Source of the DNA: Nitrospira sp.
GTDB lineage: Bacteria; Nitrospirota; Nitrospiria; Nitrospirales; Nitrospiraceae
DNA length: 64,000 nt
Direction of reading: 5' to 3'
Assembly (NCBI GenBank): GCA_020853775.1
Contig: JADYYH010000024.1
Coordinates: 1-64,000, forward strand
The notes under the pieces: generated by a model
Databases searched by the model: none
The model's input: the letters and a program-made list of their open reading frames with translations, nothing else
What the model was told of the DNA's origin: nothing
Position numbers and translations under genes: made by a program
In this document: positions 51,103-63,665 of the stretch, piece by piece
Position numbering within the stretch: the stretch's first letter is position 1
Layout: each line of letters opens with the position of its first letter

Positions 51103-52707
51103 TCATGTCGAGAACGGTTGCGGCGTGAGGCCTGGCACGATGGCGGCCATCCTGACGTCGGACGACGCCTTAGCCGCGCCCGCGGCTTTCGGGGCGGCCT
51201 TTCCACGCACACGATGCATTTTCTCTCGCGTATGGTAGGGCATGAGGTTCTCGAGGACTGCCGGCAGCTTGTCGCAAGGCACATCCTCCATGATCTTGGT
51301 GGCCAGCTTCGGATCCGGCCCCGACCGGCCGCCGACAAAAATATCGACGGCATCGACGACCTTTCCCCCGACTCTCGCCTTCTTGCCAAGCAGCCCGACA
51401 TCCGCGACGAGATGATTGCCACATCCAGCCGGGCACCCGGACCAGTGCAACGTGATGGGCTTCAGCCCCTCCCCCAGCTTGTGTTCTAAAACTTGGGCCG
51501 TTTCAACGGCCCGACGTTTCGTTTCAATGACGGCCAGGTTGCAATAGTCACTCCCGACACAACTGACAAGCCCCTTGTAGAGCGGTGACGGATTGTAGGC
51601 AAATTGTTTCACGAGCGGCTCCTCCGCCAATTCACCCACCACACGGTCGCTGATGTGAGGAATCACAAAGGCTTGAGCCGGCGAAAGCCGCACTTCACCC
51701 GTCCCATAGCGATCCGCCAGCGCCGCAATGTTGCGCAAATCAGCGGCTTTGATCCGTCCCACCAAGATCTTCAGGCCGATATAGTTCAAGCCGCGTTGCT
51801 TTTGTCGAAAAATGCCGATGTGGTCGCGCTCACCCGCCGCCCGAGCATCGACTCCCGCCGACGGCAACGCACGGCCCATGCGCACCTCCACTTCATGCCG
51901 CAACCGGGCCTCGCCCCAGGCTTCGACGAGAAATGCGAGCCGTGCTTGCGCGCGATTCTCGCGCAGACCATGGTCACGGTAGATGTGCAACAGCGTTCGG
52001 CACACCTCGAAAGCTTCCGCCGGATTTACAAACATGTCCAACGAACTGGCGATGCGATAGCCACCGGAGCCCAGCTTGCCTCCGACCAAGACGTTGTAGC
52101 CGAAATATTTGTCGTGCCCTAAATCATGATGGGCAGGCACCAGCGCGATATCTTGCGTCTCCGTGTGGAGGCAGTTATCCGTGCAGCCGGTCACGGCGAT
52201 GTTGCACTTTCGCGGCAAATTCGTATAGGCAGGATTCCCCAACACTTCGTGGTTGATCGCGCGCACGATCTCTGTCCCGTCGAGCAACTCATTGGGATTC
52301 AGACCCGCTACCGGACAGGTCATGACATTACGCACGCTGTCCATGCCGGTTTGCATCGATGTGAGCCCGACCTCCCCCAGTTTTGCGAAGACCGTGGGCA
52401 CGTGGGCGATCGTCAAGTGGCGCAGTTGCACTTGTTGCCGGGTGGTCACATCGATCACGCCATTGCCATAGGCTGCCGCAATATCCGCCAGCGCTTGGAG
52501 CTGGACTGATGTCGTTTGGCCGCCCGGCATCCGCACTCGCAACATGAAAAAACCCGGCGTGGGATTCCGTAAAAACAGTCCGTACCATTTCAGCCGTTGA
52601 ATATCGTCTTCCGGAATGGACTCCCACCCTGCTTCCGCATAGTGCGCAAGAAGGTCGCGCACCGACAATCCATCTCGCTCGGACTTGATCGCTTCAATCT
52701 TGTTCAT
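51103..52707 (-). CDS. nirA: assimilatory ferredoxin-type nitrite reductase
   Basis: This is a 534-residue sirohaem/4Fe-4S enzyme that reduces nitrite to ammonium. The cluster and sirohaem cysteines are Cys383, Cys389 (VSCVGSDYCNLAVIETK) and Cys425, Cys429 (SGCPAGCGNH). The N-terminal half has GFFMLRVRMPGG, VIDVTTRQQVQLRHL and NVMTCPVAGLNPNELLD; KCNIAVTGCTDNCLHTETQDIALV is also typical. The C-terminal 40 residues (Ala/Lys/Arg-rich) are an extension. ATG 52707 overlaps the upstream winged-helix gene by 4 bases. Nitrite rather than sulfite is inferred from the nirC-cynS neighbours. Confidence 0.9.
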   Translation of the reverse strand: MNKIEAIKSERDGLSVRDLLAHYAEAGWESIPEDDIQRLKWYGLFLRNPTPGFFMLRVRMPGGQTTSVQLQALADIAAAYGNGVIDVTTRQQVQLRHLTIAHVPTVFAKLGEVGLTSMQTGMDSVRNVMTCPVAGLNPNELLDGTEIVRAINHEVLGNPAYTNLPRKCNIAVTGCTDNCLHTETQDIALVPAHHDLGHDKYFGYNVLVGGKLGSGGYRIASSLDMFVNPAEAFEVCRTLLHIYRDHGLRENRAQARLAFLVEAWGEARLRHEVEVRMGRALPSAGVDARAAGERDHIGIFRQKQRGLNYIGLKILVGRIKAADLRNIAALADRYGTGEVRLSPAQAFVIPHISDRVVGELAEEPLVKQFAYNPSPLYKGLVSCVGSDYCNLAVIETKRRAVETAQVLEHKLGEGLKPITLHWSGCPAGCGNHLVADVGLLGKKARVGGKVVDAVDIFVGGRSGPDPKLATKIMEDVPCDKLPAVLENLMPYHTREKMHRVRGKAAPKAAGAAKASSDVRMAAIVPGLTPQPFST

Positions 52708-52953: not shown

Positions 52954-53394
52954 TTAGAACGTTTTGTATTCCAGCCATTTGCCGTTCAGCGTAATCTTGC
53001 AGCGGGCTTCACCCTGAGAGCCGGTCACTTTTTCCATGTCCAGAGTAAAATCGATGGCGCTCATGATCCCGTCGCCGAACATTTCATTCGCCATCTCCCG
53101 CAGGGAATCCCCATAGACACCGATGACTTCCATCAGTCGGTACTTGAACGGGTCCGTCAGATTCGGAAAATCCGCCCGGACAGGAAACGCGCTCAAGGCT
53201 GCCACCTGTTCGTTGTTTAGCCCCAACAACTTCCCGACCTTCGCGGCATCCGCCGGGAGCAGGCGATGGTTCCCGTTCAAGGCCGCCGCCACGAACGTCG
53301 GATTCTTCCCGACCTTCTTGGCCACCTCGGCAATGGTCACTTTCTTCTTCAACCGTTGCGCCTTGATCGCCTTCCGCATCGATTCCTTCTCCAT
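52954..53394 (-). CDS. cynS: cyanate hydratase (cyanase)
   Basis: Cyanase turns cyanate and bicarbonate into ammonium and CO2. The 146-residue protein has the N-terminal helical DNA-binding-like domain (VTIAEVAKKVGKNPTFVAAALNGNHRLLPADAAKVGKLLGLN) and the C-terminal active-site domain. The catalytic residues Arg86, Glu89 and Ser112 (YRLMEVIGVYGDSL, GDGIMSAIDF) match E. coli Arg96, Glu99 and Ser122 at a constant offset of 10. ATG 53394 follows AGGAGG; the open frame further upstream overlaps nirC and is not used. It supplies ammonium to the same pathway as NirA. Confidence 0.95.
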   Translation of the reverse strand: MEKESMRKAIKAQRLKKKVTIAEVAKKVGKNPTFVAAALNGNHRLLPADAAKVGKLLGLNNEQVAALSAFPVRADFPNLTDPFKYRLMEVIGVYGDSLREMANEMFGDGIMSAIDFTLDMEKVTGSQGEARCKITLNGKWLEYKTF

Positions 53395-53447
53395 TCGCTC
53401 CTCCTGTGAATGATCCGCCCTTAATGACGAGCCCTTGCCACTCTGCC

Positions 53448-54278
53448 TCACGATCCTGCCACCACCGATGTGGCCGGTTGCGACACTGGAACTCTCGGAG
53501 CTTCTACCACCCAATAGGGACTCACCATCCAGTACAGCCCACCGACAAACAATCCTCCGCCCACCAGGTTCCCCAGCACGACAAACAGCTGGTTGTACCA
53601 AAACGCCGCCCAGGTCACGGCCGCCTCATGCGGCAGAAACAGTGCCATACCCAACAAGGATTGATTCGCGATGCTGTGTTCGAACCCCGTGCCGATGAAG
53701 GCAAACAGGCACCAAAAGATTAGCAGAATCTTCGCGGTATCATTGGTCGTCCGCCCGGTCATCCACACAGCCAGACAGATCAGCCAATTGCAAAGAATCC
53801 CCCGCACGAACAACTCCCAGGCCGGAAGAGACATTTTCGCCGCCGCCGCTTTCTCGATCAGCTCCATGGCCGGGCCGTTCGCAAACACACCTGACTGGAC
53901 GATCAACCAGGCCAGCGCCAACGACCCGGCCAGATTTCCGATCCACGACCACGCATTGAGCTGAATGACTTGCGTCCAGGACAGACTTCTGGAAAGGCCC
54001 CCGACGGCGCCGATCAAATTGTTGCCGGTGAACAACTCGGACCCCGCAAAAATCACCAGCGTCAGCGCAATACCGAACGAGACTCCCATGACGAGTTTCA
54101 CGACCGGCGATCCGGCCGCCGCCAACGGACCGCCGACACTGAAGATCAATGCTATGCCAAAACCGAGATAGATGCCGGCTAAAGCCGACAAGATAAAATA
54201 CCCACCCGGCGCGTGCTCCAAAAACGACCACTTTCTTGCCGCCATGACTGCGATCCGCTCGTGATCCGCTGTGTGCAT
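53448..54278 (-). CDS. nirC: formate/nitrite channel family protein (NirC-type)
   Basis: This is a 276-residue protein with six membrane helices of the FNT family, pentameric channels for formate, nitrite or related anions. Motifs are LSALAGIYLGFGIALIFSV, LFTGNNLIGAVGGLSRSLSW (the family's N-terminal signature), LFVRGILCNWLICLAVWMTG and FIGTGFEHSIANQSLLGMA, which contains the conserved pore His. Its place before cynS and nirA argues for nitrite. ATG 54278 follows GGGAGAG. Upstream lies an ANTAR-type leader with two terminators and a promoter at 54540-54568. Confidence 0.88.
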   Translation of the reverse strand: MHTADHERIAVMAARKWSFLEHAPGGYFILSALAGIYLGFGIALIFSVGGPLAAAGSPVVKLVMGVSFGIALTLVIFAGSELFTGNNLIGAVGGLSRSLSWTQVIQLNAWSWIGNLAGSLALAWLIVQSGVFANGPAMELIEKAAAAKMSLPAWELFVRGILCNWLICLAVWMTGRTTNDTAKILLIFWCLFAFIGTGFEHSIANQSLLGMALFLPHEAAVTWAAFWYNQLFVVLGNLVGGGLFVGGLYWMVSPYWVVEAPRVPVSQPATSVVAGS

Positions 54279-54317: not shown

Positions 54318-54366
54318 AAAAAAAGACGTCCTCATCCCCGCAGGGGGATGAGGACGTCTTTGTCCT
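54318..54366 (-). promoter_or_regulatory. second leader attenuator of nirC: AAAGAC hexaloop hairpin overlapping a terminator
   Basis: On the minus strand the hairpin AGGAC-AAAGAC-GTCCT (54366-54351) shares its 3' arm with a perfect 15-bp terminator stem (54358-54344 with 54339-54325, loop CTGC), followed by seven T (54324-54318). The two folds exclude each other. The hexaloop has A1 and G4 as in ANTAR targets. The hairpin GCCGAC-GCTGAA-GTCGGC, about 45 bases upstream, could be its partner. Confidence 0.65.
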
Positions 54367-54429
54367 GCTCAACGAGGGCATGATTCCCTCGCCGATTATG
54401 ATGGGCCGACTTCAGCGTCGGCAGAAACG

Positions 54430-54468
54430 AAAAAGGCGTCCGCCACTCTTGAAAGAATGACGGACGCC
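54430..54468 (-). terminator. first intrinsic terminator in the nirC leader
   Basis: Minus strand: GGCGTCCGTCA, a 12-base loop, TGGCGGACGCC, then TTTTT. It overlaps the hexaloop hairpin at 54460-54477. It can also serve as attenuator for nirC and, if transcripts run through, as terminator for glnA. Confidence 0.8.
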
Positions 54469-54520
54469 ATTGTCCGTGTACCGTATGTGGTGCAGGTTCG
54501 AGATCAGGCGTCGTTGCCTG
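54460..54520 (-). promoter_or_regulatory. dual-hexaloop ANTAR-type RNA element in the nirC leader
   Basis: Stem-loop 1 is CAGGC-AACGAC-GCCTG (54520-54505). Stem-loop 2 is ACGGAC-AATGGC-GTCCGT (54477-54460). Both loops have six bases with A first and G fourth, the pattern recognised by ANTAR antiterminators (NasR, NasT, EutV). Stem-loop 2 overlaps the terminator at 54430-54468, so protein binding would allow read-through into nirC-cynS-nirA. The 27-base linker is longer than in the classical motif. Confidence 0.72.
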
Positions 54521-54539
54521 CTCTCACCCACGCACAGCA

Positions 54540-54568
54540 TGTATACCATCGCCCCCCGGATTCGTCAA
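54540..54568 (-). promoter_or_regulatory. sigma70-type promoter of nirC-cynS-nirA
   Basis: Minus strand: TTGACG (54568-54563), a 17-base spacer and TATACA (54545-54540). The transcript would start about 54533, just before the first hexaloop hairpin. Confidence 0.65.
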
Positions 54569-54593: not shown

Positions 54594-56003
54594 CTACACG
54601 TCATAATACAGAAAAAACTCATACGGATGCGGCCGCAACCGCATGGTATCGACTTCCTTGGTCCGCTTGTACCCGATCCAGGCCTCGATGAGGTCCTCGC
54701 TGAATACTCCACCCTTGAGGAGGAACTGATGGTCCTTCTCCAGGTGGTTGAGCGCCTCGTCCAAGCTGCCCGGCATGGTGCGAATCTTGGCCGCTTCCTT
54801 GGCTTCGAGATCGTACAGATCCTTTTCCGCCGGCTCTCCCGGATTGATCTTATTCTCGATACCGTCCAGGCCCGCCATCAGCATAGCCGCAAAGGCCAGG
54901 TACGGGTTGGCGGCAGGATCCGGGAAGCGGACTTCAATCCGCTTCGCTTTCGGGCTCGGGGAGTACATCGGAATACGAATACCGGCCGACCGGTTGCGGC
55001 TCGAATAGGCCAGCAAGACCGGCGCTTCAAAGCCCGGGGTCAACCGCTTGTACGAGTTGGTCGACGGGTTGGTGAATGCCGCCAACGCGGGTGCATGCTT
55101 CAGAATGCCGCCGATGTAATGCAGGCACATCTGCGACACGCCGGCATATTCCTTCCCGGCAAACAGCGGCTTGCCGTCCTTCCAAATGCTCTGGTGGGTA
55201 TGCATACCCGATCCGTTGTCGCCGAAAATCGGCTTGGGCATGAAAGTCACTGTCTTCCCATGGCGACGCGCGACGTTCTTGACGATGTATTTGAACATCA
55301 TCATTTTGTCTGCCGTCCGTAACAGGCTGTCGAAGCGAATGTCGATTTCCGCCTGGCCCGCCGTCGCCACTTCGTGATGATGCTTTTCAGTGGCGATGCC
55401 TGCCTTTTCCATCTCGAGAATCATTTCGGTGCGGATATCCTGCTGCGTATCTGTCGGTGCCACTGGGAAGTAACCTTCCTTGTGGCGAATCTTTCCACCG
55501 AGATTGACCCCCTCCTGCCCCATATTCCACACGCCCTCATCGGAATCGATGTGGTAGTAGGCGCTGTGGTTCGTCTGATCGTAGCGGGCATGGTCGAAAA
55601 TGAAGAATTCGGCTTCCGGCCCCCAGTACGAGGTGTCGCCGATCTTGGTGCTCTGGAGATATTTTTCCGCCTTTTGGGCAATGAACCGCGGATCGCGGTC
55701 ATACATTTCGCGCGTGATCGGATCGACCACATTGCCGATCAGGCTCAGTGTGGGCACGGAGCAAAAGGGATCCATGCAGGCGGTTGCCGGGTCCGGCACG
55801 AGCAGCATGTCGCTGTTGTTGATCGCCCTCCAGCCGCGAATCGACGACCCGTCGAGCCCGGATCCGTCCTTGAAGAGGCCCTCGGTCAGCTCACTGACAG
55901 GAATCGTAAAATGCTGCCAGGTGCCGATCAGGTCGACAAACTTCATGTCCACGACCTGGACCTTATTCTTCTTTGCAAAATCTAACACTTCACGAACGTT
56001 CAT
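54594..56003 (-). CDS. glnA: glutamine synthetase, type I
   Basis: GlnA makes glutamine from glutamate, ammonium and ATP. The 469-residue protein has [43 protein letters not shown], the metal-site segments ([24 protein letters not shown]), [24 protein letters not shown] and [11 protein letters not shown]. The adenylylation Tyr is present in [12 protein letters not shown], so it is a type I-beta enzyme under GlnE-type control, consistent with the split GlnE-like pair at 41.5-45.7 kb. It is last in glnB-glnD-glnA, 49 bases after glnD. Confidence 0.97.
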
Positions 56004-56052: not shown

Positions 56053-58734
56053 TTATGCCGCATGAGCTCCGAGAAACAGTTCAATTTCGTTGAGAATCGA
56101 CGCCCGGATCGTTTCGAGGCGACCAGCGTCTTCCACTTTCTTCCCGTCCATCCCCGTCACGTAAAACACGTCGGCCACTTGATCAAGCCGGGTGGAAATC
56201 CGGGACGCATGCACCGACAAACCCAACTGAAAAATGGCGTTCGTGATAATGTACAGCAATCCTTGCCGATCATCCGCAAAAACATCAAGAATCGTAAACC
56301 GGTCGGAGGTCTCATTGTCGATGCGCACCTCGGATGGTTGCCGGTGAGCGGGCAATGACCGGCCCATGTTCAACCGTGCCCCGCGCCGCATCACCGAATC
56401 GATGGACTGACGGCCGGTCAACACCTCCGTAATCATCGCCCCGATCGACTCGCATCGTTCCGCCGGCGGAGCGCCGTGATAATCGGGATCGGCGACCTGG
56501 AAGGTATCGACGACCACGCCGTCTTTTCTGGTGACGATCTGCGCGTCCAGAATCTGCAATCCACCCGCCGCCATCACCCCCGCAATTTTCGAAAACAATC
56601 CCGGGATCAGATCGTTATGCGCAATCACGGCATATTCACAGGTCCCCAATGGCGCGTTGAATTCCGTCTCCACGACCACGCCGCCATCCAGCAGGCGTCG
56701 AATGGCGCCCAGGTGATCGGCAATACGCCGCGGACTCGTACCGTACGCATAGCGCAGGGGAAACTGTTCGAGCTCCGAGCGGATCCAGGCCCTGTCGGCA
56801 GGGAAATTACGATTCCCCTGCGACTGTCCCGCCACATCATCCGCGATGCGCGCCAGCCGTTGCGGCTCATCGGCCGTCTCCCGCTCGCCCGATACTTCCT
56901 GCATGGCTCGCAGGTACAGTTCAACCAGGAGCGACTCTTTCCATTTCGTCAGTACATCGGGGCCCACGGCCGCGATGTCGGCCGCGGTCAGGGCCAGCAA
57001 CTTGCGCAACACTTCCGGCGTGCCGACTTCCCTCGCGAACGGCAACAACACTTTTTCATCATAGGGATCGCGCCGGAAGGCCGTGTGAGCCATCAACAGA
57101 TGCCGATGGACCAGCATGACGAGGGTGCGCGTGTCCGGTTCATCGAAGCCGAGACGCGCCGCCATTTCTTCCGCCAACCGCTTCCCGACTTCACTATGAT
57201 CTTCCTCGTGGCCCTTCCCCAGGTCATGAAGGAGGAGCGCCAGGTGCAGCAGATCCTTGCGCTTGATCTCTCGATACACCTCGCCGAGGACACCCGTATG
57301 GTCGGCCAGGGTTTCGGCTTTCGCCACCGCGAGTAAGCTATGCTCGTCGACCGTGTACTTGTGGTACTGGTTAAATTGCATCAGTCCGCGGACGCGTGAG
57401 AAGGCCGGCACGAGTTTCTCTAGCAGATGCGCCCGATGCATGGCTTCCAACGTTCGCGCCGTGCCGGGTCCCGCGAGAATCGAGAGGAAGGTTCGGCCGG
57501 CCTCCGGCGTATGGAACTGTTCGATGGACAGCGTTTCCGCATGCCGGTGAATGTCTTCCAGGAGAGAGGGATCGATGCTCAGCTGCCGGGATCGAGCCAC
57601 ATTGAACAGCGTGAGTAGCAACGTCGGCTGCACCAGGACTTGTGAACGCAACTCAACAGGGACGGTCAGCGCCTCACCATCGATCACGAAATATTGTTGA
57701 ATGCGCGGAGACGGGAGCCATCGAACGAGCCGTTTCCACAAGGAGCGGCGGCGGCACCGTTCCACAAATCGCATCAAGGCGACGTGCAGCCCCATCGTAT
57801 GCCGATAGTATTGCTGCATGAATTGTTCAACGGCGAGCAAATGCGGACGATCGGTGAAACCGAGATGTTTCGCCAACCAGACCTGTTCGTCGAAGGTGAG
57901 AATTTCCTGCGCCATGCCGGCTCGAATATGGAGAAACGAACGGACGCGCAAGAGAAACTCTCTGGCTTCCTTGATCGAGCGATAGTCTGCTTGGGATAGA
58001 ATCCCTCGGTCTGACAGTTCGCGAATGGTGGGCGCCTGAAATCGCGCGGATCCAATCCATTGCAGAAGATGCAAATCGCGCAGACCACCCTTGCTTTTCT
58101 TGACGTTCGGCTCAAGCAGGTAGACCGTCTCGCCGAACTTCTGGTACTCGCGCTGCCGTTCCGCCACCTTCTGTTCGAGATACCCGTCGAAGCCGCTCGA
58201 CACCACTTTGCGCACATAACGCGCGTGGAATTGCTGAAAGAGTTCGGGGCTGCCCGCCAGAAACCGGGCCTCCATCATAGACGTGCGAACGGTCAGATCA
58301 GCCATACCCAAATCGATACAGTCTTGAATGGTGCGCACGCTATGACCGACCTGAAACCCGATATCCCAGAGCGGATGCAGCACCTGCTTCACCAGCTCAG
58401 GGATTACCTTGGCCGCATCCTGATGAAAGAGGAACATCAGATCGATATCGGAGTGCGGCGCCAATTCCCGCCGGCCGTAGCCTCCGATCGCCACCAGGCA
58501 ACAATGCTGGAACCCCGCAGTCGTGAGCGCCTCGCCGCCTGTTCGAGCCGCCATCCGGTACCGGCCGACAATGAGTCCGTCGACCAGATCCGTCGTGGCC
58601 GTCACTACCTCATCACCCGAGGCGCCGGCCAGCAACCGCTCCTGAATCGCGTGGCGCTGTTCAGCCAGCAGCTGGGACACCACAAGAGGAGCCTCGTGCA
58701 CCATATGAGAGTCTGCGTCCAAGGCTTGCGACAT
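56053..58734 (-). CDS. glnD: [protein-PII] uridylyltransferase/uridylyl-removing enzyme
   Basis: GlnD senses glutamine and adds or removes UMP on PII. The 893-residue protein has the nucleotidyltransferase motif GGYGRRELAPHSDIDLMFLF, a central helical region, an HD phosphohydrolase domain (LLHDLGKGHEEDHSEVGKRLAEEM), and two C-terminal ACT domains (YAVIAHNDLIPGLFSKIAGVMAAGGLQILDAQI and FTILDVFADDRQGLLYIITNAIFQLGLSVHASRIST). It begins 2 bases after glnB. Confidence 0.95.
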   Translation of the reverse strand: MSQALDADSHMVHEAPLVVSQLLAEQRHAIQERLLAGASGDEVVTATTDLVDGLIVGRYRMAARTGGEALTTAGFQHCCLVAIGGYGRRELAPHSDIDLMFLFHQDAAKVIPELVKQVLHPLWDIGFQVGHSVRTIQDCIDLGMADLTVRTSMMEARFLAGSPELFQQFHARYVRKVVSSGFDGYLEQKVAERQREYQKFGETVYLLEPNVKKSKGGLRDLHLLQWIGSARFQAPTIRELSDRGILSQADYRSIKEAREFLLRVRSFLHIRAGMAQEILTFDEQVWLAKHLGFTDRPHLLAVEQFMQQYYRHTMGLHVALMRFVERCRRRSLWKRLVRWLPSPRIQQYFVIDGEALTVPVELRSQVLVQPTLLLTLFNVARSRQLSIDPSLLEDIHRHAETLSIEQFHTPEAGRTFLSILAGPGTARTLEAMHRAHLLEKLVPAFSRVRGLMQFNQYHKYTVDEHSLLAVAKAETLADHTGVLGEVYREIKRKDLLHLALLLHDLGKGHEEDHSEVGKRLAEEMAARLGFDEPDTRTLVMLVHRHLLMAHTAFRRDPYDEKVLLPFAREVGTPEVLRKLLALTAADIAAVGPDVLTKWKESLLVELYLRAMQEVSGERETADEPQRLARIADDVAGQSQGNRNFPADRAWIRSELEQFPLRYAYGTSPRRIADHLGAIRRLLDGGVVVETEFNAPLGTCEYAVIAHNDLIPGLFSKIAGVMAAGGLQILDAQIVTRKDGVVVDTFQVADPDYHGAPPAERCESIGAMITEVLTGRQSIDSVMRRGARLNMGRSLPAHRQPSEVRIDNETSDRFTILDVFADDRQGLLYIITNAIFQLGLSVHASRISTRLDQVADVFYVTGMDGKKVEDAGRLETIRASILNEIELFLGAHAA

Positions 58735-58736
58735 AC

Positions 58737-59117
<381 letters not shown>

Positions 59118-59177: not shown

Positions 59178-60506
59178 TCATGAGTACGCACGTTCGTTAT
59201 GTTGACTCAAATCCAGACCGGTCGCTTCCTCTTCGGGCGAGACCCGCAGTCCCGTCATCGCATCGACGAATTTGAGGATGGCAAAGGTACCGACCAACGA
59301 GAAGACCGTCGTGACCACCACGACCAGGAGTTGGACGCCGAACAAACCGGGATTACCGAAGAAGAGCCCATCGGCGCCTCCGGGATTGACGACCTTGCTG
59401 GCGCAGAGCCCCGTCGCCAGCACTCCGATCACCCCCCCGACTCCGTGGATTCCCACGACGTCAAGCGAGTCATCATAGCCGAATCGCCCTTTCCAGACAA
59501 TCGCCGCGTAGCAGGACATGCCGGCCACCAGGCCGATGAGGATGGCCCACAGGGGGCTGATATATCCCGCCGCAGGCGTCACCGTCGCCAGGCCGGCCAC
59601 CGCGCCGCTGGCCACGCCCAGTACCGTCGGTTTCCCGCGATGCATCCATTCCGAGCCGCACCAGGAAATGGCCCCCATGCAGGCGGCCGCATGGGTCGCC
59701 AGAATGGCCGACACCGCCACGCCGTTCGCCCCGAGCGCGCTTCCCCCGTTGAACCCGAACCACCCGAACCACAAAAATCCGGTCCCGAGCAGGGTCATCG
59801 GCAAATTGTGGGGCGCCATATAATCCGTGCCATAGCCCCGACGCTTGCCCAGCACAATCGCGCAGATCAATGCCGACGCGCCGGAGCTGATGTGAATCAC
59901 CGCGCCGCCGGCAAAATCTAACGCGCCCAGCTGAGCCAACCATCCGCCGCCCCAAATCCAATGCGCCAACGGCACATAGACGAGCACCGACCACATGGCG
60001 GCGAACAACACGACCGACGTGAACCGTTTGCGCTCAGCAAAAGCGCCGGTGATCAGCGCCGGCGCAATGGCGGCAAACATTAATTGGAACAACACAAAGG
60101 CTTGGTGAGGGATCGTCGGAGCGTAGACCGCGTGCGGCTGGCTCCCCACTCCACTGAGGCCGATCCAGTCCAGCCCTCCGATCACCCCGCCTTTATCCGG
60201 TCCGAACGCGAGGCTATAGCCGAACAGAATCCATAACAGGCTGACCACGCTGAGGATCATGATGCTCTGCATGATCGTCCCCAGCACATTCTTGGTGCGC
60301 ACGAGCCCTCCATAAAACAGGGCAAGACCCGGCATCAGCATGGCCAGCACGAACGCCGACGAAACCAGAACCCATGCCGTATCGCCGCTATCGGCTTTGA
60401 GCGGCGCATTCTCCGCCCAGGCGTGCTCAGCCCCGAATCCCACTGTCCAGGTGAGTATCCCTGTCAGACTCACGATGAACGTTTTCCACTGTGCCGATGC
60501 CTTCAC
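59178..60506 (-). CDS. amtB: ammonium transporter
   Basis: This is a 442-residue protein with a cleavable-type N-terminus and 11 membrane helices. Features are WVLVSSAFVLAMLMPGLALFYGGLVRTKNVLGT, the first pore His in DFAGGAVIHISSGASAL and the second in DVVGIHGVGGVIG. The C-terminal tail (GLRVSPEEEATGLDLSQHNE) is the PII-binding type. The start is a GTG with AGGAGG before it. A strong hairpin (60531-60579) sits between the upstream porin stop and this start. Confidence 0.96.
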   Translation of the reverse strand: MKASAQWKTFIVSLTGILTWTVGFGAEHAWAENAPLKADSGDTAWVLVSSAFVLAMLMPGLALFYGGLVRTKNVLGTIMQSIMILSVVSLLWILFGYSLAFGPDKGGVIGGLDWIGLSGVGSQPHAVYAPTIPHQAFVLFQLMFAAIAPALITGAFAERKRFTSVVLFAAMWSVLVYVPLAHWIWGGGWLAQLGALDFAGGAVIHISSGASALICAIVLGKRRGYGTDYMAPHNLPMTLLGTGFLWFGWFGFNGGSALGANGVAVSAILATHAAACMGAISWCGSEWMHRGKPTVLGVASGAVAGLATVTPAAGYISPLWAILIGLVAGMSCYAAIVWKGRFGYDDSLDVVGIHGVGGVIGVLATGLCASKVVNPGGADGLFFGNPGLFGVQLLVVVVTTVFSLVGTFAILKFVDAMTGLRVSPEEEATGLDLSQHNERAYS

Positions 60507-60583: not shown

Positions 60584-61462
60584 TTAAAACGTCTTCGTGA
60601 ACTTCAGCTTATAAAAATCCTGATTGTCTGTCAGATCTTTCCCTGCCGTGAACCGGAAGGCCATGTTCCCCGGCAACTTCATTTCGACGTACGGGCCGAT
60701 CCAACGATAATAATCCTGAGCCGCTCCCGGCGCGCTGCTGTCACGCGTCGTCAACAAGTGCTCATAATGAGCACCCAGAGACCACATGCTGTTCATACGC
60801 ACACCGGCGCTCACCCAATAGTGTAGGAAGTCCCAGGTTCCCCGGCCGCCGGTCTGACTGGTCCCCAGGCAATTCGTATCCACCAACCCGCTACAGCCCG
60901 TCGCCCCTCCGCCACCGCTGCCGCCCTCGCTGCGGATCGCCTTGTAGTAGCCCAGGTAGAACTCGCCTTCGAAACGATTGTCGATGTAGTTCGCGATGAT
61001 GTTCGGCACCGCGCCTTCAAAGGCCGTCGTGCGCTCATTGACGCTACCGCCGCCGTTTGGAAAAAACCCGCCGCGGGACGACAACAAGCTGCCATGCACA
61101 AACCCGATCATCGGCGTGACGGATAGGCGTTTTTCCAGGAACGTGAAATTGAGTCCCACGTCCGTTTCCAGCCAGGGCGCGTTATCGTGCACACCTATGC
61201 CATTGATCATGGTCCAATAGGTGAAGTTAAAGGCAAGTGCGACGTTATCGGTCAGACCGTAGGTGCCGTAAATGGATGGATTGAATCCGAAAAAACTGTC
61301 GGCCTGCATCGCCATCGTCACCGACACGGGGTGCTTGGTGGTGTCCATCAAGTCGTCTGTCGTCGCAGCCTGCGCCTCGACCAGCGCGCCTCCTCCACCG
61401 CCTGCCATCAATGCGAACCCCAACACCCATGCCCGTGCCTTTCGCCCTACCAAGATATTCAT
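60584..61462 (-). CDS. outer-membrane beta-barrel protein (DUF6733-like)
   Basis: This is a 292-residue protein. ATG 61462 follows TTTGGAGGCG and opens a signal peptide ending VEAQA. The rest alternates polar and hydrophobic residues with many aromatic belts (YGTYGLTDNVALAFNFTYWT, FEGEFYLGYYKAI, WIGPYVEMKLPGNMAFRFTAG) and ends in a terminal Phe (KLKFTKTF), the usual insertion signal of outer-membrane barrels. Next to amtB it may admit ammonium or other small solutes. A dual-hexaloop RNA element lies in its leader. Confidence 0.75.
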   Translation of the reverse strand: MNILVGRKARAWVLGFALMAGGGGGALVEAQAATTDDLMDTTKHPVSVTMAMQADSFFGFNPSIYGTYGLTDNVALAFNFTYWTMINGIGVHDNAPWLETDVGLNFTFLEKRLSVTPMIGFVHGSLLSSRGGFFPNGGGSVNERTTAFEGAVPNIIANYIDNRFEGEFYLGYYKAIRSEGGSGGGGATGCSGLVDTNCLGTSQTGGRGTWDFLHYWVSAGVRMNSMWSLGAHYEHLLTTRDSSAPGAAQDYYRWIGPYVEMKLPGNMAFRFTAGKDLTDNQDFYKLKFTKTF

Positions 61463-61540
61463 GACGCCTCCAAAGAGAGAAGAAGTAAAAGTGCCCGCAC
61501 CAAAAACCGTCATGCCCGACGATCTCTGAGCCCCGTCTCT

Positions 61541-61597: not shown

Positions 61598-63367
61598 CTA
61601 CCGATACCCGTTGGTGATCGGCATCCGCCGATCCTTGCCGAATGCCCGATGCGTAATCTTGATGCCGAGCGGCGCTTGCCTGCGTTTGTACTCGCTGCGA
61701 TCCACCATCACCATGACGCGCGCCACCGTGTCCCGATCGAAACCCATGGCCACAATGTCTTCGAGGGCGCGATCCTCCTCGACATAGGCCTTCAAAATGG
61801 GATCCAACACCGAATAGGGCGGCAAACTGTCTTCATCTTTTTGATCGGGGCGCAATTCTGCCGTCGGAGGCCGTTCCAGCACGCGTTTGGGAATCACCGG
61901 CTCCGGGCCACTGAGATTTCGCAGATGCGACAGTTCATACACCATCGTCTTGGGTACGTCTTTGATCACCGCAAAGCCGCCGGCCATGTCGCCATATAAC
62001 GTGGCGTAGCCGACGCTCATTTCGCTCTTGTTCCCGGTGGTCAACACCAAGTGCCCGAATTTGTTGGAATAGGCCATGAGCAGATTGCCCCTGATTCTGG
62101 CCTGCAAATTCTCTTCGGTCGTGTCGGGGCGATGTCCCGCGAATGGCTTGGACAGCGCCCGGAGAAAACTCTTGAAGGTCGGCGTAATCGAAAGGGTATC
62201 GACCTGGATGCGCAGGCGCCGCGCCAGATCGACAACATCCTCGCGACTGACCCGCGAGGTATAGGGCGAGGGCATGAACACCCCGAGGACATTGTCCGCG
62301 CCGACCCCATCCACCGCAATGGCCGCCGTGATGGCCGAGTCGATGCCGCCGCTCAATCCAATGACGACCCGCTTAAACCCGTTCTTTCGGACATAATCGC
62401 GCACCCCCAGCACCAGCGCGCGATAGGCCTCCTCCAGCCGATCCAACGGGGATTCCATGGCCGGAACCAGGATCGACGAGGACTTCCTCGCCGGCACCCG
62501 CACCGCAACACGATCCACCAGCGCGGCCACACGCGGCGGCAAGGGCCTAGTGCGCCGCTCCCCCTGGCGGGCTCGGCCCACCGCCGCCACATCGAGATCG
62601 GCAATCAGCAGATCCTGCTCAAAGGACTTGCCCCGCGCCACCACGTCGCCGGTCTGATCCACGATCACACTGCAGCCGTCGAAGACCAGCTCATCCTGCC
62701 CACCCACCATGTTGGTATAGGTGACCAGCACGCGATTTTCGCGCGCGCGGGTGGCCAGCACCTGTTCGCGCAGGCGGCTCTTGCCGACATGGAACGGCGA
62801 GGCGTTGATGTTGACGATCACCTCGGCTCCGGCCGCAGCCTGCGCGCGTGTCGGCCCTTCGGGAAACCAGATGTCCTCGCAAATATTCACACCGATGGTC
62901 GTGCCATTCAGCACCAGCAGCGGCAAGCGCGTCCCAGGACAGAAATAGCGGCTCTCATCAAACACGCCATAATTCGGCAAGAGCCGCTTGCAGTAGTTGG
63001 CGACCAGCCGTCGCTCACACAGCACGGCTGCCGCATTGTAGAGATCATGCCGACCGGCCGGCGAGAAGGCTGAGGGCTCCGGCACGCCGGCACCGGCTGC
63101 CTCGCGTGCGACATACCCCACCACCACCACGATCCCTTGCGCCTCCGCCGCCACCGCTTTCAACGCTCGCTGCGTGTCTTCGATGAAGCGGGGCTTGAAC
63201 AACAGATCCTCCGGCGGGTACCCGGTGATGGCCAATTCGGGGAACGCCACAATGTCCGCTTTCACGCGGCGCGCATCCTTGATCCAGGCCTTGATCAGCG
63301 CCGTGTTGCCGACGATGTCGCCGACCGTCGGATTGATCTGGGCCATGGCGACTCGCAAAAACCGCAT
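61598..63367 (-). CDS. nadE: glutamine-dependent NAD synthetase
   Basis: This is a 589-residue two-domain enzyme. The N-terminal nitrilase-type glutaminase has Glu44 (VAFPELAITGYPPEDL), Lys in ANYCKRLLPNYGVFDE and the nucleophile Cys in GVNICEDIWF. The C-terminal synthetase has the PP-loop IGLSGGIDSAITA, then LVLTTGNKSEMSVGYATLYGDMAGGF. It amidates nicotinate-adenine dinucleotide using glutamine, a link to the nitrogen genes downstream. An attenuator-like leader lies upstream (63520-63575). Confidence 0.95.
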   Translation of the reverse strand: MRFLRVAMAQINPTVGDIVGNTALIKAWIKDARRVKADIVAFPELAITGYPPEDLLFKPRFIEDTQRALKAVAAEAQGIVVVVGYVAREAAGAGVPEPSAFSPAGRHDLYNAAAVLCERRLVANYCKRLLPNYGVFDESRYFCPGTRLPLLVLNGTTIGVNICEDIWFPEGPTRAQAAAGAEVIVNINASPFHVGKSRLREQVLATRARENRVLVTYTNMVGGQDELVFDGCSVIVDQTGDVVARGKSFEQDLLIADLDVAAVGRARQGERRTRPLPPRVAALVDRVAVRVPARKSSSILVPAMESPLDRLEEAYRALVLGVRDYVRKNGFKRVVIGLSGGIDSAITAAIAVDGVGADNVLGVFMPSPYTSRVSREDVVDLARRLRIQVDTLSITPTFKSFLRALSKPFAGHRPDTTEENLQARIRGNLLMAYSNKFGHLVLTTGNKSEMSVGYATLYGDMAGGFAVIKDVPKTMVYELSHLRNLSGPEPVIPKRVLERPPTAELRPDQKDEDSLPPYSVLDPILKAYVEEDRALEDIVAMGFDRDTVARVMVMVDRSEYKRRQAPLGIKITHRAFGKDRRMPITNGYR

Positions 63368-63519: not shown

Positions 63520-63575
63520 AAAAAAAAAGTCCTCGGACCCACCAACCTCGGTGGACCAGAGGACGTCGTTGTCCT
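63520..63575 (-). promoter_or_regulatory. attenuator upstream of nadE: AACGAC hexaloop overlapping a terminator
   Basis: Minus strand: hairpin AGGAC-AACGAC-GTCCT (63575-63560) shares its 3' arm with a long imperfect terminator stem (63564-63529; GTCCTC..GAGGAC outside, CCACC/GGTGG inside) followed by nine T (63528-63520). The hexaloop has A1 and G4. The layout copies the second attenuator of the nirC leader. A possible partner hairpin (AACGG..CCGTT) lies just upstream. Confidence 0.65.
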
Positions 63576-63635
63576 GCGCCATCTCTATAACGGATAGCCT
63601 CCTGAGACTCCGTTGTCCCTGGAAAAGCTGGCGAT

Positions 63636-63665
63636 GATATAGCACCAGCCCGAATCGACTGTCAA
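63636..63665 (-). promoter_or_regulatory. sigma70-type promoter of the nadE leader
   Basis: Minus strand: TTGACA (63665-63660), an 18-base spacer and an extended -10, TGC then TATATC (63641-63636). It is the strongest promoter match seen in the window. Confidence 0.65.

Follow-up and report, generated by a model that had tools for sequence, protein, structure and literature searches.

Two terminator units between glnA and nirC

Why should the leader of a nitrite transporter gene carry two intrinsic terminators in a row, each overlapped by a small hexaloop hairpin? The question is raised by the minus strand between glnA and nirC (positions 54568-54318) in the window analysed here, i.e. a stretch of 64,000 nt from Nitrospira sp. 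GCA_020853775.1 (contig JADYYH010000024.1, positions 1-64,000, forward strand; coordinates beyond it are given with the contig prefix C24). An earlier note on this DNA had placed a promoter, hairpins and terminators there, and had read them as ANTAR-type antitermination control. All these elements were located at those places on the minus strand: a conserved promoter, then two terminator units. The promoter (TTGACG-17-TATACA, 54540-54568; -35 at 54568-54563, -10 at 54545-54540) had been called good; its sequence and spacing are as described, and it is nearly constant across orthologous leaders; its -10, however, is just 4/6 by consensus, and falls below the threshold of a simple promoter scanner. 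This -10 reads as an extended -10, TGGTATAC.

Downstream, also on the minus strand, lie nirC, of the formate/nitrite transporter family (53448-54278, PF01226), the cyanase gene cynS (52954-53397, start approximate; TIGR00673 above cut-off), and a nirA-type ferredoxin nitrite reductase gene (51103-52707, PF01077/PF03460), whose best NCBIfam match, ferredoxin--nitrite reductase, reached 551 bits, slightly below the 594 cut-off. The nirC open reading frame is open from 54335, with a likely start at ATG 54278 after AGGGAGAG, and relatives align from residue ~18-19. Two nirC orthologues from other genomes contain one in-frame stop each within the matched stretch (G009:C1:3089210-3090091, TGA; G016:C18:40266-41138, TAA). 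Directly upstream of the leader is glnA (54594-56003, minus strand, stop at 54594; PF00120/PF03951), and a terminator scan found no other terminator between its stop and the leader.

Unit 1 begins with a hairpin P1, CAGGC-AACGAC-GCCTG (54505-54520), which is prolonged by an outer stem of the GGGTG../..CACCC type. It is followed by a hairpin P2, ACGGAC-AATGGC-GTCCGT (54460-54477), whose loop and 3' arm double as the 5' arm of the first terminator (54430-54468; stem 54468-54435, 15 pairs then T5), identified by fold, conservation and terminator scan. Both hexaloops have A at position 1 and G at position 4 (A1/G4). As drawn, the linker from P1 to P2 measures 27 nt, a length that pairing of the outer P1 stem would reduce; the range used for published ANTAR RNAs is 2-25 nt (PMC8164766). 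Judged by its sequence, unit 1 is a textbook ANTAR dual hairpin, with a linker that, as drawn, slightly exceeds this range, and the earlier description of it (paired A1/G4 hexaloops, the second over a U5 terminator) was borne out.

Unit 2 is similar in plan, its P2 hairpin and its terminator both being perfect. Its terminator (54318-54361; stem 54361-54322, 18 pairs and a T run; again from fold, conservation and terminator scan) is overlapped by the hairpin P2', AGGAC-AAAGAC-GTCCT (54351-54366), with an A1/G4 hexaloop. Upstream, alignment and folds reveal a P1-like hairpin, P1', GCCGAC-GCTGAA-GTCGGC (54405-54422), and single-sequence folds place an intervening hairpin between P1' and P2' (about 54369-54395).

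The 241-nt leader has a fold energy of -129 kcal/mol (z = -10.9 relative to shuffles). We then scanned the window for A1/G4 hexaloop hairpins overlapping a terminator and having a second A1/G4 hexaloop hairpin upstream. Three matches were obtained, against 0.05 per shuffled window, and conservation shows two of them to be real: unit 1 (54471), and a newly found element at 63570, hereafter named leader B. Unit 2 was recovered as P2 and terminator only. The third match (46391, minus strand), in which both the terminator under the hexaloop hairpin and the hairpin upstream are weak, is absent from the matches of the covariance model R1 described below, and is probably due to chance.

Conservation of the leader and the case of unit 2

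To follow the leader in relatives, 24 leaders were gathered by nirC orthology, and hence not selected for hairpins: 23 from the same genus (this one included), and one from another genus of the family. The two stacked terminators announced by the earlier note are both present, and their tandem arrangement is kept across all 24. No leader departs from A1/G4 in P1, P2 or P2' (24/24). In the consensus structure, double-sided changes were found at 12 pairs, where shuffles gave 3.0 and slid controls 8 at most; 98.0% of cells were paired, versus 34-51%. The helices of unit 1 P1 covary, including its outer stem (helix 1), and P1' was helix 4 of the covariation test. In alignment A1, P1 had been selected for a stem and G4, which biases the covariation seen there; the fair test is that on alignment A2.

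The loop of P1' departs from the rule. The hairpin itself is conserved, and G4 is present in 22/23 leaders (one leader lacks it), but 21/23 have G at position 1 and the other two have A, so that unit 2 fails a strict A1/G4 rule for the P1 hexaloop. The intervening hairpin occurs in nearly all leaders with variable sequence; it was rejected as the true P1 of unit 2, having no conserved hexaloop. The earlier note was thus right on the P2' hexaloop over its terminator, and had omitted both P1' and the intervening hairpin. In the tandem leaders of four other genomes (G004, G028, G029 and G034), a hexaloop hairpin with A or G at position 1 (R1) and with G4 precedes P2', with mostly different stem sequences, and G1 in P1 is also found in otherwise typical elements elsewhere. 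On paper, unit 2 thus resembles an ANTAR unit whose P1' violates the strict A1 criterion. In two leaders, L135 (G029) and L157 (G028), the hexaloop hairpin adjoins P2' and an extra hairpin comes first, so that the order looks reversed.

Related leaders in the same genome

Leader B, on the minus strand, has a promoter-like sequence TTGACA-18-TATATC (63636-63665), and the scan gave P1 GGGAC-AACGGA-GTCTC (63604-63619), P2 AGGAC-AACGAC-GTCCT (63560-63575) and a terminator followed by T8 (63521-63564). It precedes a series of minus-strand genes that ends at the nirC leader: the glutamine-dependent NAD synthetase gene nadE (61598-63367, PF02540 and PF00795), a gene for a DUF6733 protein (60584-61513), the ammonium transporter gene amtB (59178-60506, PF00909), the P-II gene glnK/glnB (58737-59075, PF00543), glnD (56053-58734, PF08335) and glnA. 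Leader A lies outside the window (C24:77793-77855, minus strand; P1 CAGGAC-AACGAC-GTCCTG, P2 GAGGAC-AATGAC-GTCCTT, terminator, T6), upstream of a porin-like gene, urtA (PF13433), urtB, more ABC genes, then ureC and accessory genes. As in unit 1, where A1/G4 holds in 24/24 leaders, both hairpins of leaders A and B have A1/G4 hexaloops according to the scan, and in all three P2 overlaps an intrinsic terminator. Two lipoprotein-like genes of 310 and 314 aa, similar in layout, lie on the opposite strand, one upstream of leader B and one upstream of leader A (window 63718 to C24:64650, and C24:77983-78927, both plus strand). One relative (G001) has an additional ANTAR-like element, with G1 in its P1 loop, and behind it a lipoprotein-like gene of 307 aa. 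The lipoprotein-like genes beside leaders A and B may belong to the same regulon.

Genome-wide statements rest on pattern and covariance model searches. R1 is a covariance model of the dual hairpin. Its four best matches in the 4.25-Mb genome were leader A, leader B (55.3 bits) and nirC units 1 and 2, all on C24 and within 24 kb downstream of an ANTAR gene, the next match having E = 1.1. Unit 1 and leaders A and B were in the training set of R1, so that their E-values are not independent; the informative points are the lack of other matches and the recovery of unit 2 (21.7 bits). Independently of R1, the pattern GGACAANGRCGTCC had five matches in the genome, all in these leaders, compared to one for a reversed control pattern. 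The nirC leader, taken for an ANTAR leader in the earlier note, is thus one of three leaders, comprising four units, a point that had been missed.

No Rfam family reached its gathering score in the nirC leader. With a permissive threshold, the only meaningful match was P11 (RF00625, a Pseudomonas sRNA), which aligned to both units with 22.8 and 20.0 bits, versus a gathering cut-off of 70 bits. P2 of P11, GGACAAAGGCGUCC, is almost identical to GGACAAAGACGUCC / GGACAAUGGCGUCC of the nirC leader. The nirBD leader of Pseudomonas, NalA, is presumably this same RF00625 P11 RNA. A plasmid search with the unit 1 sequence gave no match.

A single GAF-GAF-ANTAR protein

The genome, listed as 100% complete, encodes exactly one ANTAR-domain protein (447 aa; PF03861, E 6e-19, 70 bits). 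Its gene (C24:78956-80299, minus strand, outside the window) is on the same contig and strand as the nirC leader, ~25 kb upstream of it, and leaders A and B sit between the two, on the same strand. The earlier note had made its ANTAR reading depend on such a protein, and on hexaloop hairpins being conserved upstream of nirC in relatives. The protein exists and the hairpins are conserved in all 24 leaders, with compensatory changes, which supports that reading. Its link to NasR and NasT has to be abandoned: the sole ANTAR protein contains neither a NIT nor a receiver domain, and has two GAF domains instead. This domain make-up rules out NasR (NIT-ANTAR) and NasT (receiver-ANTAR) as the regulator, so that control by nitrate or nitrite does not follow.

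Residues R340 and K347 of NasR are essential for RNA binding (PMC7496416), and their counterparts in the GAF-GAF-ANTAR protein are R and K in 29/29 relatives. At the position of NasR K345, R or Q is found, and NasR K345R acts like wild type. At NasR W362 the protein has F, as is usual outside NIT proteins. At R366 and N373 it has Q and R, like the putative antiterminator 1s8n, which we take to be Rv1626.

For the first GAF domain, the nearest solved structures are the GAF protein 3e0y and the PtsP GAF domains 3ci6/3trc, the NifA-like NLH1 being more distant. This likeness to PtsP and NifA-like domains is a hint of nitrogen-status sensing, not a proof. A structure model confirms the architecture (GAF, helix, GAF, long helix, three-helix part), but does not reveal the ligand, as its pTM is just 0.48 and the folds that match it best are those of tandem GAF proteins of a generic kind. 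A search for an NtrC orthologue returned many NtrC-family proteins, none of them over a cut-off that was itself reached by just one of 14 control genomes.

Distribution of the elements in relatives

Elements were found with R1 in 45 of 61 relatives. In a draw across the phylum, 26 of 148 genomes had elements, and 25 of the 26 belonged to the same order. Of the 44 Nitrospirales genomes with both an ANTAR gene and an element, 37 have an element on the strand of that gene and 0.09-6.4 kb downstream of it; one genome where the two are 1 Mb apart is excluded from the 37. In several genomes, e.g. G016 and G026, the ANTAR gene is directly followed by leader B. In the genomes of family f4, the ANTAR gene, nirC and the element are all absent together.

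The genes behind the elements vary, and where checked they were nitrogen genes only. Elements precede amtB in three genomes (G020, G004 and G057), porin-urtA in four (G056 by Pfam; G038, G058 and G034 by likeness) and nadE in one (G060, by Pfam). In two others, G014 (L211) and G029 (L212), a tandem leader precedes nrt-like ABC transporter genes, for an NMT1-type substrate-binding protein and a permease, rather than nirC. In these two cases, it seems that the switch stays while the transporter changes.

A probable tandem antitermination switch and its alternatives

Taken from its sequence features, the nirC leader is very probably a tandem ANTAR-type antitermination switch, with one protein serving leaders A, B and nirC. 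RNA polymerase would initiate close to 54540. Unless the ANTAR protein is active, P2 and P2' would each be absorbed into their terminator, and transcription would stop at ~54430 or ~54318. An active GAF-GAF-ANTAR dimer would bind the P1/P2 hexaloop pair and keep P2 as a small hairpin; the terminator would be blocked and nirC-cynS-nirA read. We infer ANTAR binding and the ON direction of the switch by analogy, EutV, NasR and NasT being models for the holding of P1/P2 by an ANTAR dimer (PMC7496416, PMC12830290, PMC3369931). As no other terminator stands between glnA and nirC, transcripts from leader B would also have to pass both units to reach nirC.

By acting on leader A (porin-urtABCDE-ure) and leader B (nadE-amtB-glnK-glnD-glnA) as well, the same protein would be a general nitrogen-acquisition regulator. 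The broad range of targets (urea, ammonium, nadE, nitrite) argues against a nitrate- or nitrite-only signal, and this one-protein regulon probably answers to general nitrogen status, through the GAF domains. As a switch of this kind also precedes urea and ammonium genes, one ANTAR protein probably controls most nitrogen uptake of the cell. A wider proposal, on which we are evenly divided, is that in Nitrospirales a single GAF-GAF-ANTAR protein serves as general nitrogen regulator by antitermination at both stacked and serial terminators, all along an island of nitrogen genes (for urea, ammonium, glutamine, cyanate and nitrite), sensing nitrogen status (e.g. 2-oxoglutarate or glutamine) by GAF domains related to PtsP and NifA-like ones, and replacing an NtrC-type activator at these promoters. 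When nitrite was the only nitrogen source of N. moscoviensis, published RNA-seq showed most of its nitrogen locus to be strongly transcribed and its urea genes moderately so (PMC6606698), which is compatible with the regulon reading and does not test it.

The hairpins might have no regulatory role, and simply insulate glnA from nirC as two strong terminators in a row. Both units are indeed strong intrinsic terminators, ~160-280 bases from the glnA stop, where no other terminator is present; but insulation has no need of a promoter, a conserved P1 or invariant hexaloops, and P1 keeps A1/G4 in 24/24 leaders. As the complete P1, P2 and terminator unit also repeats before nadE and the urea operon, near the ANTAR gene, we hold this explanation to be highly improbable. 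Hardly less unlikely is a switch of the NasR/NasT type, by which nitrate or nitrite would be sensed and nitrite assimilation alone controlled. The genes downstream, nirC-cynS-nirA, would suit it, P2 is similar to the Pseudomonas P11 RNA, and in that genus NalA, the leader RNA of nirBD, is a target that NasT opens (PMC12830290). Against this stand the two GAF domains of the sole ANTAR protein, with neither NIT nor receiver, and the presence of the same element before urea and ammonium/glutamine genes.

A more serious competitor, although we still doubt it, leaves the ANTAR switch to unit 1 alone, unit 2 being a plain terminator or the site of another factor, and the likeness of P2' a relic of duplication. 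The G1 of the P1' loop in 21/23 leaders, the one leader without G4 and the score of just 21.7 bits for unit 2 speak for it. On the other side, P2' has kept A1/G4 in 24/24 leaders, other lineages have R1/G4 hexaloop hairpins on quite different stems before P2', and otherwise typical elements elsewhere use G1 in P1 too; we prefer the tandem switch.

Comparison with known ANTAR systems

Several known systems resemble the proposed tandem switch in part. NasR acts on the nasF leader of Klebsiella oxytoca, and shares with the present case a one-component ANTAR protein, A1/G4 hexaloops, the terminator overlap and a role in nitrite assimilation; unlike here, nitrate is sensed by a NIT domain and one operon is served. 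NasT, with NalA in the Pseudomonas nirBD leader, also exerts ANTAR antitermination on a nitrite-assimilation operon, but it is of receiver type, held by NasS and released by nitrate/nitrite, with a sigma-54/NtrC promoter (PMC12830290), whereas in Nitrospira we find GAF-GAF-ANTAR, sigma-70-like promoters, tandem units and a wider regulon. EutV/EutW (eut, Enterococcus faecalis) has the dual hairpin, a P2 common to the terminator and several sites per ANTAR protein; according to PMC3369931, it differs by its phosphorylated receiver, its response to ethanolamine, a linker of 5-12 nt and sites that lie between genes and are not stacked. The same paper reports predicted ANTAR regulons for nitrogenase in Pelobacter carbinolicus and glutamate synthase in Desulfotomaculum reducens, which cover several nitrogen operons, as here, in other phyla and with other gene sets; its passages on them mention neither stacked units in one leader nor a GAF-GAF regulator.

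ANTAR antitermination of nitrogen genes, predicted multi-operon regulons included, is thus already known (PMC3369931). What appears new is the link between a GAF-GAF-ANTAR protein and its targets, together with the stacking of two units in a single leader. As for the nitrogen gene cluster itself, it has been described in Nitrospira as a conserved locus (PMC12342949, PMC6606698). The passages that describe it do not mention RNA control, and 'antitermin' occurs in neither paper. No report of such control was found in the open-licence literature, to which the search was restricted, so that this absence is weak evidence.

In 2012, no GAF-ANTAR protein had a characterised RNA target, according to PMC3369931, and the present leaders, if correctly interpreted, would provide a natural one. 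The stacking of antitermination units in one leader would then make the off-state tighter, or graded. Nitrospira are of key importance among nitrite oxidisers, and the complete ammonia oxidisers belong to them too; for their switching among ammonium, urea, cyanate and nitrite the analysis offers one candidate regulator and exact RNA sites. The prediction is open to test in a described strain, Ca. Nitrospira defluvii, in which the same tandem nirC leader is present.
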